A stretch of 23,711 nucleotides of DNA from a virus. How positions within the stretch are numbered: position 1 is the stretch's first letter; each line of letters starts with the position of its first letter. The DNA lies in IMG/VR virus record IMGVR_UViG_3300024999_000402, positions 1-23,711 of that record, one strand, 5' to 3'. Shown here piece after piece: positions 1,029 through 15,838 of the stretch. The translations under genes and the position numbers were made by a program. The notes below the pieces were generated by a model. That model saw only the letters and a list, made by a program, of their open reading frames with translations. It was not told the DNA's origin and did not search any database.

Positions 1029-1193
1029 TTAAAGGTCTTCGTTATCCGCTGCGGCGACTTCTTTCTGGCCGAACTTGAACGCCTGGGCCTCATCTTCGGC
1101 CTCGACATGGGCCACATAAACGTCCTGGCCCTGCGGGATGTCCGCGCAGAGGTAGTCCGGACGGAGTAAAACGACGGTGTATTTTTTATTCAT
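1029..1193 (-). CDS. Small conserved phage protein, N-terminal part before an in-frame TAA
   Basis: 54 residues beginning MNKKYTVVLLRPDYLCADI, followed by GQDVYVAHVEAEDEAQAF. It resembles a family of about 80-residue phage proteins with the pattern YTVVLLxPDY, GQ-x-x-Y-x-AHV, then a helix and a terminal EGHH motif. The ATG at 1193-1191 overlaps the TGA stop of the Cys-repeat gene (ATGA), with AAGG just upstream, so translation is coupled. The frame stops at a TAA (1031-1029) about two thirds of the way through the family's usual length; the missing third is encoded in frame directly after it. Function unknown. Confidence 0.65.
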   Translation of the reverse strand: MNKKYTVVLLRPDYLCADIPQGQDVYVAHVEAEDEAQAFKFGQKEVAAADNEDL

Positions 1194-1771
1194 CCTTCAG
1201 CCTCCATTTTCATAATAGTTTTAACTATCTCAATATACTGCCGATACTGTTTGCCGTGGTCGGTGCCGTTGTGTTTTTTCTCCACTGCGGACTCGAAAGC
1301 TGCGAGGTCTCCGCGAAAACAGCCGCAAACGACTTGGACAGTCTCTCCTAGCCAGTATGTCGTAGTCTGGGCGCTGCGGGAACCGATCTTCTTGCCAGTG
1401 TACCTGTTCGGGTTTTCCTTGAAGTCGGAGCAGTCGGAGCAGTAGCGACAGTCGGAGCAGCCGGAGCAGTCGGAGCAGTAGCGACAGCCGGAGCAGTCGG
1501 AGCAGTAGCGACAGCCGGAGCAGCCGGAGCAGCCGGAGCAGCCGGAGCAGCCGGAGCAGTCGGAGCAGTCGGAGCAGTAGCGACAGCCGGAGCAGTCGGA
1601 GCAGTAGCGACAGTCGGAGCAGTCGGAGCAGTCGGAGCAGTCGGAGCAGTCGGAGCAGTCGGAGCAGTTTGTGAGGGTCTTTGAAAAGTTCTCGGCCTGG
1701 ACTTCGGTGTAAATGTCAGCGTCCCAGCGGTTATTATTGTCGTCGTAGTACCAGCCATTTTTTAAGATCAT
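1190..1771 (-). CDS. Cys-x-x tandem repeat protein
   Basis: 193 residues. Residues 1-35 (MILKNGWYYDDNNNRWD onward) precede a long array of three-residue units, each with one Cys (CSD, CSG, CRY), encoded by 9-base repeats. The C-terminal domain of about 75 residues contains TTTYWLGETVQVVCGCFRG and a helix near HGKQYRQYIEIVK. This C-terminal domain with Cys-triplet repeats is a recurrent phage and bacterial type; the array probably forms a narrow beta-solenoid or binds metal, but its role is unknown. The ATG overlaps the TAA of the upstream gene by one base (TAATG), with GGAGGAGGAG before it. The complementary strand carries an accidental Thr/Ala/Pro-rich open frame. Confidence 0.85.
   Translation of the reverse strand: MILKNGWYYDDNNNRWDADIYTEVQAENFSKTLTNCSDCSDCSDCSDCSDCSDCRYCSDCSGCRYCSDCSDCSGCSGCSGCSGCSGCRYCSDCSGCRYCSDCSGCSDCRYCSDCSDFKENPNRYTGKKIGSRSAQTTTYWLGETVQVVCGCFRGDLAAFESAVEKKHNGTDHGKQYRQYIEIVKTIMKMEAEG
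1428..1668. repeat. 9-bp tandem repeats coding for Cys triplets
   Basis: About 26 tandem copies of a 9-base unit (variants of cggagcagt, cggagcagc and agcgacagt on the plus strand) encode the CSD, CSG and CRY triplets of the 1190-1771 protein. Units change only by multiples of three bases, so copy number can drift by slippage without breaking the frame. The higher-order pattern (CRY followed by runs of CSD or CSG) repeats irregularly, which suggests unequal duplication of blocks. Confidence 0.9.
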
Positions 1772-2599: not shown

Positions 2600-3229
2600 T
2601 TAATCTTCCTGGTTAAATTTCCGTTCTTTCAATGTTGCCGCCACGCCACGCAGCGTGACCAGCATGTGTCTTGGGATCACGTAGTCCCCGGATTCGTACC
2701 GGTTGACCGTTGCACGGGACACGCCGAGCAGGACGGCGAGCTGGGCCTGGTTGAGTCCGTATTCTTTGCGGATGAATTTTAAATGCTCAGGTTTGGCAGA
2801 TGGGCCAGAATCGTCTGAGGATGCCCTGTGCGGGCCGACCGTCGGCCTGGGTATGTTACCGTCCTCGTCTTGGCTGTCGTGTGCCAGAGAGAGGAATCGG
2901 TGCAGTGCTGAGGGCGCGTGCTGGCTGCGTTCGATCTGTTCCCATTCTTCAGGGAGGCGATAGAACTTCTCCGCTGCCTCTGAGATAGTCCAGCCAAGAT
3001 TTACTCGGAGGGCCGCGATGTCCTGGCCGGAGTAGGTGGGAGACGGCGGCGAGGCCAGGAGCAGATTGTTGATCTGGCTGTCCTGTTTGACCGAGACCTT
3101 TACTAGTCCGGTCTCCTTCCGCTGGAGGGTCCGGATGTCCATCAGGAGGTGGTCGGCCAGTTCGGCTTGGCTCATTTCGAGCGCGACTCGCTTGAGGAGG
3201 ATCAGGTGGTTTATTGGTTCAGTGTACAT
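2600..3229 (-). CDS. Phage transcription regulator with two XRE-type HTH domains
   Basis: 209 residues. The C-terminal domain (about 148-200) is a textbook Cro/cI-type helix-turn-helix: LKFIRKEYGLNQAQLAVLLG, then VSRATVNRYESGD. The N-terminal region (about 8-45, LLKRVALEMSQAELADHLL) is a second, more diverged HTH of the same kind. The middle (70-110) carries another helical segment, with a Ser/Pro-rich linker before the C-terminal HTH. It should bind DNA, plausibly as a repressor or switch protein. AAGGAG precedes the ATG. Its promoter (3268-3296) carries a TGTTACA element over the -10, suggesting autoregulation through the repeats beyond it. No peptidase or oligomerisation domain of the lambda cI kind is visible. 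Confidence 0.85.
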   Translation of the reverse strand: MYTEPINHLILLKRVALEMSQAELADHLLMDIRTLQRKETGLVKVSVKQDSQINNLLLASPPSPTYSGQDIAALRVNLGWTISEAAEKFYRLPEEWEQIERSQHAPSALHRFLSLAHDSQDEDGNIPRPTVGPHRASSDDSGPSAKPEHLKFIRKEYGLNQAQLAVLLGVSRATVNRYESGDYVIPRHMLVTLRGVAATLKERKFNQED

Positions 3230-3267
3230 ATCGGCTCCTTGAGGTTGGTCTTAAATCTTATGACTGA

Positions 3268-3296
3268 GTTGTAACACTGTCGGCAAGAGCTGTCAA
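3268..3296 (-). promoter_or_regulatory. Sigma70-like promoter of the regulator operon, overlapped by a repeat element
   Basis: On the minus strand: TTGACA (3296-3291), a 17-bp spacer, TACAAC (3273-3268). A TGTTACA sequence (3276-3270) lies over the -10 and belongs to a copy of the two-part repeat (3270-3285). Transcription would enter the dual-HTH regulator gene about 30 bases later. This fits repression by a protein that recognises the repeat. Confidence 0.6.
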
Positions 3297-4015
3297 GAAA
3301 AAATGTTGCGAGAGGTTACTTTTCAGTTAACAAATTAAGATTTGCTGTAATATCCACAAGATAGCTTTTTTGTAGGAAGGTGTAACATCCTTACGGCATG
3401 AAATTTTGCGGTTTTTAGAGTTTTTTGTAACATGGTTACGGCAGAAATTGGCGTTTTTGGTGTATGAAAGAAACAAATTTGAAAAAATCGTGCAGTAAAA
3501 TGTGCTTGAAATCATTGAATAAGTGGTTTTTGGTTTATTAAAAAAATTTTTATTAGAGAGAGATATATTTATTTTATGCCGTAATGATGTTACAAGGGAA
3601 TTGTGCGGTGTTGTTAGGAAGGGGCGACGGGTTGCCAGGGCATGTAACATCCTTACGGCATAAATTTTAAAAGTTCTGGTTATTTTTTTTTTTTTTTAAT
3701 AAAGTAAAATTTTTATTATTACTTATTATCTTATAAAATATATAATAATACTAGGGCTTTTGCGGTGGCTGCCCTCCAAAAAGTTTGTGAAAAAATTTTT
3801 GGCCATTTGTTTCTTTCATACACCTAGATTTCACTTTTCTGCCGCTTTGTGTTACTTTTGGATGTAACAATTATCCGCCATTGTTACACTTTGATGTAAC
3901 AAAAGCCGGCATTTATTACATTTCTTTGTTGAAAAAATCCAGGCCATGTTACATTTGTTGTATCTTTCCTGCCGTGTTTTGTTACTTAGAAGTGTTGATG
4001 TAACATTTTGCGGCA
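3270..4015. repeat. Family of two-part repeats TGTAACA-N(4-6)-CGGCA
   Basis: Nine copies are visible in both orientations. Plus strand: 3270-3285, 3381-3398, 3426-3443, 3643-3660, 3895-3911, 3999-4015. Minus strand: 3577-3594, 3840-3855, 3970-3985; the last two carry AGTAACA. Four copies are the longer form TGTAACAT-NN-TTACGGCA. The spacing changes from 6 bases in the left half to 5 in the right half. The asymmetric, repeated design resembles iterons or multi-site operators of a phage origin or control region. A related site lies in the promoter at 6401-6429. Confidence 0.8.
3459..3824. repeat. 19-bp perfect inverted repeat flanking AT-rich DNA (candidate origin core)
   Basis: GGTGTATGAAAGAAACAAA at 3459-3477 recurs as an exact reverse complement at 3806-3824. 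The outer flanks also share GGCAGAAA (about 10-15 bases beyond each copy) in the same inverted arrangement. The roughly 330 bp between them holds very AT-rich segments (about 3530-3575 and 3661-3755), a run of 15 T (3683-3697) and two of the two-part repeats. Inverted protein-binding repeats around easily melted DNA is the arrangement of many theta-replication origins. No gene is credible across 3230-4422. Confidence 0.6.
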
Positions 4016-4058
4016 GTGGTTTTCTCTTCGGAAAGGAGTATTTTGATCCCTTGATTTG

Positions 4059-4329
4059 TTAACTCAAATGTAACAATTGTTACACCACCACTTTTTTCTT
4101 GGCCTGTTTTTTGGTAAAATCGCCAGTTTTGTTAAAATAGTTAGGCCGGCCTAAATCTCGCTGCTGTGTTTTGCTACACCGTTTTGTTACTCCATCTGTA
4201 ACAAATGTTACTCCTAGTTAACAAAGTTTTTCCCTCGCGCCTGTCGCCGATGTTACATTTGCTGTAACATAGGGCGGTTTTCCCTCCCTATTTGTTAACT
4301 TGCTGTAACATTTGTTACTCTTAGTTAAC
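4059..4329. repeat. Cluster of GTAACA/TGTTAC palindromes and GTTAAC sites
   Basis: A perfect 16-bp palindrome TGTAACAATTGTTACA lies at 4069-4084. Related dyads are GTAACA-AA-TGTTAC (4198-4211), TGTTACA-N5-TGTAACA (4251-4269) and GTAACA-TT-TGTTAC (4305-4318). GTTAAC palindromes occur at 4059-4064, 4217-4222, 4294-4299 and 4324-4329. A separate 14-bp palindrome TTAGGCCGGCCTAA is at 4141-4154. The symmetric form suggests a dimeric DNA-binding protein; these look like operators related to, but arranged differently from, the two-part repeats to their left. Confidence 0.7.
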
Positions 4330-4363
4330 GTTTTCTTGTAACGTTTTGCTACTCTCAGGTAAC

Positions 4364-4396
4364 AAAAAAGCCCCACCTCATGTAACAAGGTAGGGC
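4364..4396 (-). terminator. Rho-independent terminator of the 4423-6349 operon
   Basis: On the minus strand GCCCTACCT pairs with AGGTGGGGC (9 bp including one G-T pair) around a 9-base loop, followed at once by six T. It sits 27 bases downstream of the last gene of the operon and isolates that operon from the repeat region. The loop is TGTTACATG, so it contains one copy of the TGTTACA element. Confidence 0.85.
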
Positions 4397-4422
4397 AATT
4401 TTCGTGTTCGAAATAGGGCGTT

Positions 4423-7846: not shown

Positions 7847-8563
7847 TTAAATATGGGTCCACGAAGCTCTCTTTCTGATGTTGTTAATAGCACCTTTAGA
7901 CACCTCGTAGGTTTTTGCGAGGGTCGCGGTGTTTACATCTGTGAGGGACCGTATCTCCTCAACCTGCTCGGCGGTGAGTTTTCTGGCATGAGCGTTTTTG
8001 ACTTTCTTCCTGGCAGGGCTACCAGTTCCGAGCGCAACTCCTACGTGCCCCCACATCGCTCCCTTTTTTATAAGGTAGATGGTGTGCTTGCACACGCCGT
8101 AAATTTTAGCGATCTCGATCTGCATAAACCGCTTATTTCGAATAAGGTCGCAGATTTCTCTCACTTCCTGAGATGTAAGTTTAGCATTGCTATGCCCGTC
8201 TCCGAAGCATTGGCGGTTCCTGGAGACTTTGTCGGCGACGTTGTCAGCGTGAGTCCCAGAGAGAAGGTGGTCAGGGTTGACACACTTCCTATTGTCGCAT
8301 TTGTGGCGGATAACTGTACCCTTGGGTTGTTTTCCAAACTCCCTCTCATAGGCGTATATGTGAGGGAGGGTCTGAAGTTCTTTGTAGGCAAATCTACCAT
8401 ACCCATCAGGGCGAATGGTTCCGAGCCACTCGAGGCACCCTTGTGCAGTAGAAGTGGTAGGAATTTTATGGGAAAAACTGCAATCTTCACTGCAAAACTG
8501 CGCAGAAGATCGGCCGTCGGCGAGGAACTCAGTTCCGCAGTGGATGCATTTTTTAGTTTTCAT
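7847..8563 (-). CDS. HNH homing endonuclease, antisense to the late genes
   Basis: 238 residues from the ATG at 8563-8561; an upstream in-frame start is rejected because it lies before the predicted promoter. Order: zinc knuckle C6, C9, C24, C28; HNH_3-type nuclease at about 43-111 with VIRHKCDNRKCVNPDHL, then GTHADN; two similar C-terminal HTH modules beginning KLTSQEV and KLTAEQV, each ending in a W-containing motif, as in the DNA-recognition tails of phage HNH endonucleases. It faces the small terminase gene (12-bp gap) and lies head to head with the 8656 gene. No intron or intein is visible, so it is a free-standing mobile gene. Confidence 0.88.
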   Translation of the reverse strand: MKTKKCIHCGTEFLADGRSSAQFCSEDCSFSHKIPTTSTAQGCLEWLGTIRPDGYGRFAYKELQTLPHIYAYEREFGKQPKGTVIRHKCDNRKCVNPDHLLSGTHADNVADKVSRNRQCFGDGHSNAKLTSQEVREICDLIRNKRFMQIEIAKIYGVCKHTIYLIKKGAMWGHVGVALGTGSPARKKVKNAHARKLTAEQVEEIRSLTDVNTATLAKTYEVSKGAINNIRKRASWTHI

Positions 8564-8569
8564 AGGACT

Positions 8570-8598
8570 ATAATAAACCGTATATATGCTTTTGTCAA
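8570..8598 (-). promoter_or_regulatory. Strong promoter for a leaderless HNH endonuclease mRNA
   Basis: Minus strand: TTGACA (8598-8593), 17 bp, TATTAT (8575-8570). The A of the ATG is the seventh base after the -10, the usual initiation distance, and no Shine-Dalgarno site lies before the ATG. The endonuclease thus carries its own promoter, independent of the late operon. Confidence 0.65.
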
Positions 8599-8655
8599 CA
8601 TGAAAGTAGTATATGGTGTTAATCCGTGTTAAATATTTTATCTTAGGAGCCAACC

Positions 8656-14866: not shown

Positions 14867-15065
14867 GCCGAACTACTTAGCTCTTGACAAGTACAAATTA
14901 ACTAAGCACTGTTGTCGATGTAACAAAATCGCACTGGCCGACGGCACCTGGCTGCCGGCCATACTTGTTCGGATACGAGGTATCAAGGAGTCCCATGGGT
15001 TTTGTCCTGAGTGTTTGGCATGGCAGATGCGGCTGATTGAGGAGAGGAGGAGAGAAAAGTGCTGA
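14859..15065 (+). CDS. Small zinc-ribbon protein
   Basis: 68 residues from ATG 14859 (AAGGA upstream), overlapping the phosphoesterase gene by eight bases. It has KHCCRCNKIALADGTW and SHGFCPECLAWQ: two C-x2-C knuckles about 30 residues apart, the layout of a single zinc-binding domain seen in short phage proteins and at the ends of some bacterial sensor proteins (C-x-x-C-K-x-I, then SHGxCPEC). Likely a small nucleic-acid or protein adaptor. A GGAGAGGAGG-type site at its end serves the following gene. Confidence 0.7.
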   Translation: MTKPNYLALDKYKLTKHCCRCNKIALADGTWLPAILVRIRGIKESHGFCPECLAWQMRLIEERRREKC

Positions 15066-15838
15066 AACAAAGCGGTGTCTACCAGATCGTCAACACGGTG
15101 AATGGCAAGCGATATGTGGGGAGTGCTGTATGCCTTAGAAAACGATGGTGGAACCATAGGGACAAGCTTCTCAAAAACGCACATAAATCTAAGCACCTTC
15201 AGTACTCTTGGAATAAGTACGGGGCCGACGTGTTTGTCTTTCAGCCACTACTTGTCTGCTCCAGAGAGGATGTAATTTTTTATGAGCAAAGAGCTATTGA
15301 CCATCTCTCTCCTGAGTACAACACGGCGAAAATCGCAGGGAATACTCTAGGCGTGCGATGTAGCGAGGCAGCAAAACGAAAAATAGCTGCAGCGAACAGA
15401 GGAAGAGTGCCTTCTCAGGAAACGAGAGAGAAGATTCGCAAAGCTAATACGGGACAGCGAAGAACTCCGGAACAGAAGGTGAGGATCAAAGAGGCCCTTA
15501 GTAAGGTCGAATGGTCTGTGGAGCGCAGGGAACAGGCAAGAGAGCACATGGCAAGTCTGAATAAAACTCCAATGATGAGGGAACTGGTAGGCAGTAGAAC
15601 CAGAAGTAAACCGGGCAAGGCCCCTATGACCCCCGAGAAATTAGCAAACATGATTGCGAGCCGAAAAGCCGCCGCCGAAGTAATAACGTATGGCGGGCAG
15701 TCGTTGCCGCTTATGGCGTGGTCCGATGTCGTAGGTATCCCATTGATGACCTTATACAAACGCAAAGAAAAAGGGTGGACTGTTGATGAGATGCTAGGCA
15801 TACCCTTGAAAGGTTTTCGTAAGCGAGTAGCAGCATGA
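15059..15838 (+). CDS. GIY-YIG homing endonuclease
   Basis: 259 residues from GTG 15059. The nuclease domain (1-95) has G6-V-Y8, YVGS at 19-22, an Arg-rich helix (LRKRW) and E76 in FYEQRAID, the complete GIY-YIG active site. A middle region (about 98-150) has repeated NUMOD3-like motifs (SEAAKRKIAAANRGR and TPEQKVRIKEALSK). The C-terminus has YGGQSLPLMAWSDVVGIPLM and GWTVDEMLGIP, a DNA-recognition HTH. It cuts into the packaging operon just before the large terminase, overlapping both neighbours by four to seven bases, so it is a mobile gene that has adapted to the operon. Confidence 0.92.
   Translation: MLKQSGVYQIVNTVNGKRYVGSAVCLRKRWWNHRDKLLKNAHKSKHLQYSWNKYGADVFVFQPLLVCSREDVIFYEQRAIDHLSPEYNTAKIAGNTLGVRCSEAAKRKIAAANRGRVPSQETREKIRKANTGQRRTPEQKVRIKEALSKVEWSVERREQAREHMASLNKTPMMRELVGSRTRSKPGKAPMTPEKLANMIASRKAAAEVITYGGQSLPLMAWSDVVGIPLMTLYKRKEKGWTVDEMLGIPLKGFRKRVAA

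Follow-up and report, generated by a model that had tools for sequence, protein, structure and literature searches.

A locus-confined array of two-part words beside an AT-rich tract covaries with a multi-HTH protein and may mark a replication origin in uncultivated phages

In a group of ~60-kb uncultivated phages, a two-part DNA word recurs in a conserved noncoding hub next to an AT-rich tract, and from one phage to the next the word changes together with an HTH protein encoded next to it. We studied this locus in an IMG/VR record of 23,711 bases (the window, meaning that whole stretch) and in related genomes. As judged from sequence comparison, we put it at slightly better than even that the locus serves as a replication origin, alone or combined with an early control region. 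Because the window is a fragment and lacks its own primase gene, we know its replication genes solely through relatives; long genomes in the group carry genes for a DUF927 primase-helicase, a family-A DNA polymerase (PolA) and an SNF2-type helicase.

TGTAACA occurs 20 times on the two strands of the window where 1.7 copies are expected, and 17 of the 20 lie within 3270–4387. Dinucleotide shuffles of the gap that holds these 17 (3230–4422, 1193 bp) contain 0.37 copies on average and at most three, so the original prediction of a dense TGTAACA array (17 in ~1.19 kb against ~0.4) was borne out. The composite GTAACA-N4-6-CGGCA is found nine times in the gap (shuffle mean 0.004) with its halves in one order only, the other three arrangements having no copies there, and each of the gap's nine CGGCA is part of a composite. 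The prediction had claimed at least nine such composites in constant order at nine positions, all of which are correct, with the reverse copies at 3840 and 3970 beginning AGTAACA, not TGTAACA. Its distinction between a spacing of 6 on the left and mostly 5 on the right also holds: the spacing is 4 at 3270, 6 at 3381, 3426, 3577 and 3643, and 5 at 3840, 3895, 3970 and 3999. A scan of the full record, proposed at the time as a check, confined the composites to the gap, with no exact copy in the rest of the record and, using a looser word pattern (2 mismatches), three weak matches in the window outside the locus. The region had been described as gene-free, consistent with our finding that for its single ORF of at least 60 aa (3327–3650, minus strand) the nearest relative has no equivalent at the aligned position. 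Rfam and tRNA searches of the window returned nothing, no near match was found in phage DNA, and the exact word appeared in viral contigs as two single copies, probably by chance.

Next to the array is the gene for the multi-HTH protein (2600..3229, minus strand), for which a candidate sigma70 promoter, TTGACA-17-TACAAC (3268..3296, minus strand), was recognised by eye and was not reported by the pattern scan. The word with a spacing of 4 (3270..3285, plus strand) overlaps the -10 and spacer of this promoter, and a TTGACA-like/TATA-like pair can be seen by eye at the same edge of the array in relatives. The word scan then places two copies with a spacing of 6 on the plus strand, TGTAACATCCTTACGGCA at 3381..3398 and TGTAACATGGTTACGGCA at 3426..3443. 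The two remaining copies of this spacing form the core inverted pair, whose left word is TGTAACATCATTACGGCA (3577..3594, minus strand) and whose right word is again TGTAACATCCTTACGGCA (3643..3660, plus strand), with 22-nt arms and 48 nt between them; the 18-mer TGTAACATNNTTACGGCA is common to all four. In the core pairs of the window (3573–3664) and of relatives, centre-to-centre distances are ~50–57 or 70–78 bp, that is, ~5 or 7 helical turns. Immediately to the right is the AT-rich tract with a poly-T run (3659..3758), followed by the four words with a spacing of 5 from the word scan, AGTAACACAAAGCGGCA (3840..3856, minus), TGTAACAAAAGCCGGCA (3895..3911, plus), AGTAACAAAACACGGCA (3970..3986, minus) and TGTAACATTTTGCGGCA (3999..4015, plus). 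An exact 20-bp inverted repeat, GGTGTATGAAAGAAACAAAT (3459–3478 and 3805–3824), flanks the AT tract at a distance; the nearest relative keeps at most one arm. The right end of the array holds three copies of the palindrome GTAACAWWTGTTAC, at 4070..4083 (GTAACAATTGTTAC, consisting of the constant half only), 4198..4211 (GTAACAAATGTTAC, then GTTAAC) and 4305..4318 (GTAACATTTGTTAC, then GTTAAC, with a counterpart in the nearest relative). GTTAAC occurs five times in the array, at 3326 and at four places within 4058..4329 (4058, 4217, 4294 and 4324). Finally, the upstream minus-strand operon ends in an intrinsic terminator (4370..4396, minus strand) whose hairpin contains a TGTTACA word, and a similar hairpin is present in the nearest relative.

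A search with the major capsid protein gave 35 related loci. The closest long genome, G001 (61,771 bases), has the gene order of the window and is 92% identical in TerL, 92% in the portal protein, 89% in the capsid protein and 69% in the HTH protein. Its counterpart of the gap retains the poly-T/AT tract, the terminator and the right-end palindrome, and its inverted pair reads GTAACGACTTAGGGCGTAA where the window has TGTAACATCCTTACGGCAT. Other genes of the window were also compared with this genome. A cysteine-rich triplet-repeat protein (1190–1771, minus strand), in which S-D/G-C is repeated many times, has an 80% identical homologue there with a different repeat number, and two homing endonuclease-like ORFs, HNH-type (7847–8653, minus) and GIY-YIG-type (15059–15838, plus), are absent from it, the neighbouring genes lying close together at both places. 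TerL matches are split in two pieces in G004, G005, G007 and G012.

The same layout, with still other words, is common to genomes less closely related to the window (G002, G005, G008, G010, G011 and G012) and to the contigs L121–L125, and an inverted word pair with 30–48 nt between its arms lies just left of the AT-rich tract in 13 of 14 compared loci, the exception being G009, which has no clear pair. The word is TGTAACATWWAGTGGTAA in G012, TGTATCATATCGCGGACC in L121, L122, L124 and L125, GAACAGCGTGGKAAATGT in G008 and G010, and TTATTGGTTTGTGTAA in G011; the pairs of L123 (TGTAACATNNNNGTGCG), G002 (TGTAACATCNNNTTCCGA) and G005 (of the type TGTAAC-TCCA-GTGTAG) were identified by eye, as the scan left them unranked. 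The words of G002, G005, G010, G011 and L123 are each based on two copies, and many of the compared loci come from few metagenomes. The word thus differs between relatives and is alike inside each genome. With up to three mismatches allowed, two to four words are found in the locus and none elsewhere in G002, G008, G010, G011 and G012; for the 12-mer of G001, with two mismatches allowed, there are eight inside the locus and six outside. An exact-pattern search in relatives found nothing because the word is replaced there. The original prediction had held that absence of the motif from the same place in close relatives, in a freely varying region, would speak against it; the exact word is indeed missing, yet variation in the region is not free, as homologous places carry a different word.

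No close isolate was found for this phage group, the closest by TerL being 39.5% identical. In Pseudomonas phage Rollin, the best isolate TerL match, the 3.3 kb examined contain no comparable AT tract or repeats, and the lowest-stability 100 bp of that phage lie outside those 3.3 kb (117 against a mean of 152). A search of genome contigs for hosts or prophages gave just two weak partial matches. The stretch encoding the C-terminus of the DNA polymerase is present at both ends of the 65-kb G002 record (L051 and L054), so that this record seems to be self-overlapping and nearly a whole genome.

In the window, the 100 bp of lowest stability are those of the AT-rich tract centred at 3709, and the corresponding tract holds the minimum in seven of nine records; the exceptions, G009 and G011, count against an origin, as does the lack of a clear word pair in G009. 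In the G012 clade a 43-bp AT tract is 96% identical between word types, above the flanking coding DNA. Locus-confined words, an inverted pair at the least stable DNA and a tract conserved beyond nearby coding DNA together fit an origin, and the tract is a candidate unwinding element. GC skew, which had been suggested as a check, did not support an origin at this place: there is no sign change at the tract as a bidirectional origin would predict, and the minimum is ~3–4 kb from it, close to where early genes give way to late ones. The tracts of G002, G005, G009 and G011 contain CTACTACTA runs reminiscent of the DnaA-trio found at bacterial origins. To the right of the tract in L120–L125 is a 52-bp noncoding block, TTTACATTTTTTCAG..AAAAATCATC, that is 95% identical between word types and contains two TTTTTTCAG units; in the window, TTTGAAAAAATC-like units are found at 3478, 3928 and 4110. 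This block is possibly a helicase or host-factor site.

The protein encoded beside the array (209 aa) contains three XRE-type HTH domains (residues ~9–58, 68–118 and 147–208), matches Pfam HTH_3 with E=3e-16 and is modelled by AlphaFold2 with moderate confidence (pLDDT 79.6, pTM 0.55) as three four-helix bundles. The nearest solved folds are Aca2, HigA2 and P22 C2, in a search that matched single HTH domains only, none with E below 0.001; no homologue was found in phage isolates and no match to a Rep or O family. Most relatives have two HTH domains, and three are found in the window and G001. In the G012 clade, where flanking DNA is similar enough to compare directly, the C-terminal HTH coding sequence is 84% and the TGTWACA halves 84–88% identical between word types; the figures for the N-terminal HTH coding sequence and the variable halves are 52% and 31–37%. 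Within a word type the same four segments are 83–100% identical, and L121, L122, L124 and L125, which are of one type, are alike in HTH coding sequence, word halves, AT tract and right-end cluster. This right-end cluster of constant half-sites is 91% identical between types. At the protein level, L120 (G012), L121 and L123 share 90–98% in the C-terminal HTH and 31–46% in the N-terminal HTH. Similarly, G002 and G005 are 100% identical in the C-terminal HTH and 73% in the N-terminal HTH, with their TGTAACA halves retained and the other halves altered. In G010 and G011 both HTH domains and both word halves differ.

Tandem HTH domains and two-part words thus covary across loci, strongly supporting the protein that had been proposed as the binder, and we consider it very probable that the protein encoded at 2600–3229 reads the words. 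The constant TGTWACA half would match the C-terminal HTH and the variable half the N-terminal HTH. Two stretches are type-specific, one comprising the N-terminal HTH, the promoter and the left word pair and the other the right words, and they look like exchanged cassettes between the conserved C-terminal HTH, AT tract and right block. Among the loci, those of the window and G001 alone contain GTTAAC, and they are also the two with a three-HTH protein, which is suggestive of a link between the third HTH and GTTAAC; these are sister lineages, so the match amounts to one event. The reading of G001 is complicated by an extra two-HTH gene (L047, 14476–14820, minus strand) between its array and main HTH gene, which is absent from the window.

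We propose that the multi-HTH protein acts as a linear reader of the two-part words, to which it would bind with its C-terminal HTH on the TGTAACA half and an upstream HTH on the CTTACGGCA-like half. The inverted word pair beside the AT-rich tract might then form a looped complex that helps the tract to open, and the DUF927-type primase-helicase and family-A DNA polymerase could load at the opened tract. A change of type in relatives would replace the N-terminal HTH and, in every word, the half that goes with it; the C-terminal HTH, the TGTWACA halves and the AT tract would remain. That the layout is kept while half of the word and half of the protein are replaced together points to a replication start with a swappable 'password'.

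Of the functions first suggested for the array, origin iterons and a multi-operator switch fit best. In a hub for transcription control only, the protein would repress or activate its own leftward early operon and upstream promoters, with words and palindromes serving as operators and the AT tract as a promoter-enhancing or nucleoid-protein element. This reading is unlikely in our judgement, yet deserves serious consideration. XRE-type HTH proteins are usually repressors, which counts against the origin reading; the nearest folds and the XRE-family domains fit such a hub, the candidate promoter in the window contains a word, and palindromic half-sites lie close to the operon terminator. The proximity of promoter and core pair bears on both readings: a candidate promoter 100–280 bp from the pair counts against an origin, but this same distance (~100–280 bp), with no conserved promoter recognised beside the pair, also fits poorly with a hub. 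Moreover, a full word lies inside the promoter in the window only, and a 43-bp tract so conserved between types, with a stability minimum, exceeds operator needs. Partition, also suggested originally, and packaging are extremely improbable: repeat clusters are typical of parS sites and the position is intergenic, but no ParA-type ATPase (PF13614) was found in nine records, some of them incomplete, and the locus is ~12 kb from the terminase and unlinked to it.

The nearest known arrangements also bear on who reads the words. Iteron-type origins, such as phage lambda ori/O and those of the plasmids P1, F and RK2, combine an initiator-binding repeat array with an adjacent A+T-rich tract and use replicon-specific words (PMC5043065), and the locus resembles them in its nine composites and 17 heptamers, in the two to eight copies per relative and in the tract, whose unwinding would be expected on this reading. 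It differs in that the reader would be a tandem or triple XRE-type HTH protein, a putative initiator whose word specificity is indicated by covariation, in that the near-universal element is one inverted pair, and in that one word half is exchanged together with one HTH domain. In SaPIs the Rep helicase recognises the iterons directly, through its C-terminal domain, and SaPIbov1 Rep has a relative in the DUF927 protein Cch (PMC7581432); like these SaPI/SCCmec modules, the present group has intergenic origin-like iterons and a DUF927-type helicase in the genome. That the primase-helicase reads the words, with the HTH protein incidental, is nevertheless highly improbable, and we rejected it. Word specificity tracks the separate HTH protein, the primase-helicase gene is 90–93% identical whatever the word type (the L123 contig lying outside this comparison), and the G010 and G011 primases are 82–100% identical per block, mostly at least 88%, and 98–100% in the C-terminal part despite unrelated words. 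In G001 the helicase gene is also far from the locus (56.4–59.3 kb against 15 kb on the contig). The near-constancy of this gene further indicates that the word types are not merely older lineages. The primase-helicase could still recognise the conserved tract or some other block that is conserved.

An immunity locus that silences the genome, as in Cluster A mycobacteriophages, is improbable, although there is a resemblance: their monomeric repressor places two DNA-binding domains on an asymmetric word (PMC9283540), and words diverge with the protein (PMC6550527), as appears to be the case here. Stoperators are dispersed over the genome, however, and the words described here are confined to one locus, which has an AT tract; no tyrosine integrase was found in nine records. 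In lambdoid immunity regions, regulator specificity is exchanged with its sites among otherwise similar phages, whereas here one HTH domain and one word half are swapped and the other half stays. A limited search of open-access papers found no description of such a joint exchange of HTH domain and half-word at a single origin-like locus.

More tentatively, and at rather less than an even chance, these may be phages without a detectable integrase that carry origins of exchangeable specificity, in which a beads-on-a-string HTH initiator devotes one HTH to each word part (two HTH to two parts, three HTH to three words), types switch by swapping an HTH with its half-words, and similar phages fall into incompatibility-like types. 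At least five word/HTH combinations within one phage group provide a natural domain-swap series for reading the HTH-to-DNA code. An uncultivated phage group would gain an origin together with a partner protein specific for its words, and the locus offers a testable case of phages diversifying the specificity of an origin or control region, much like plasmid incompatibility groups.
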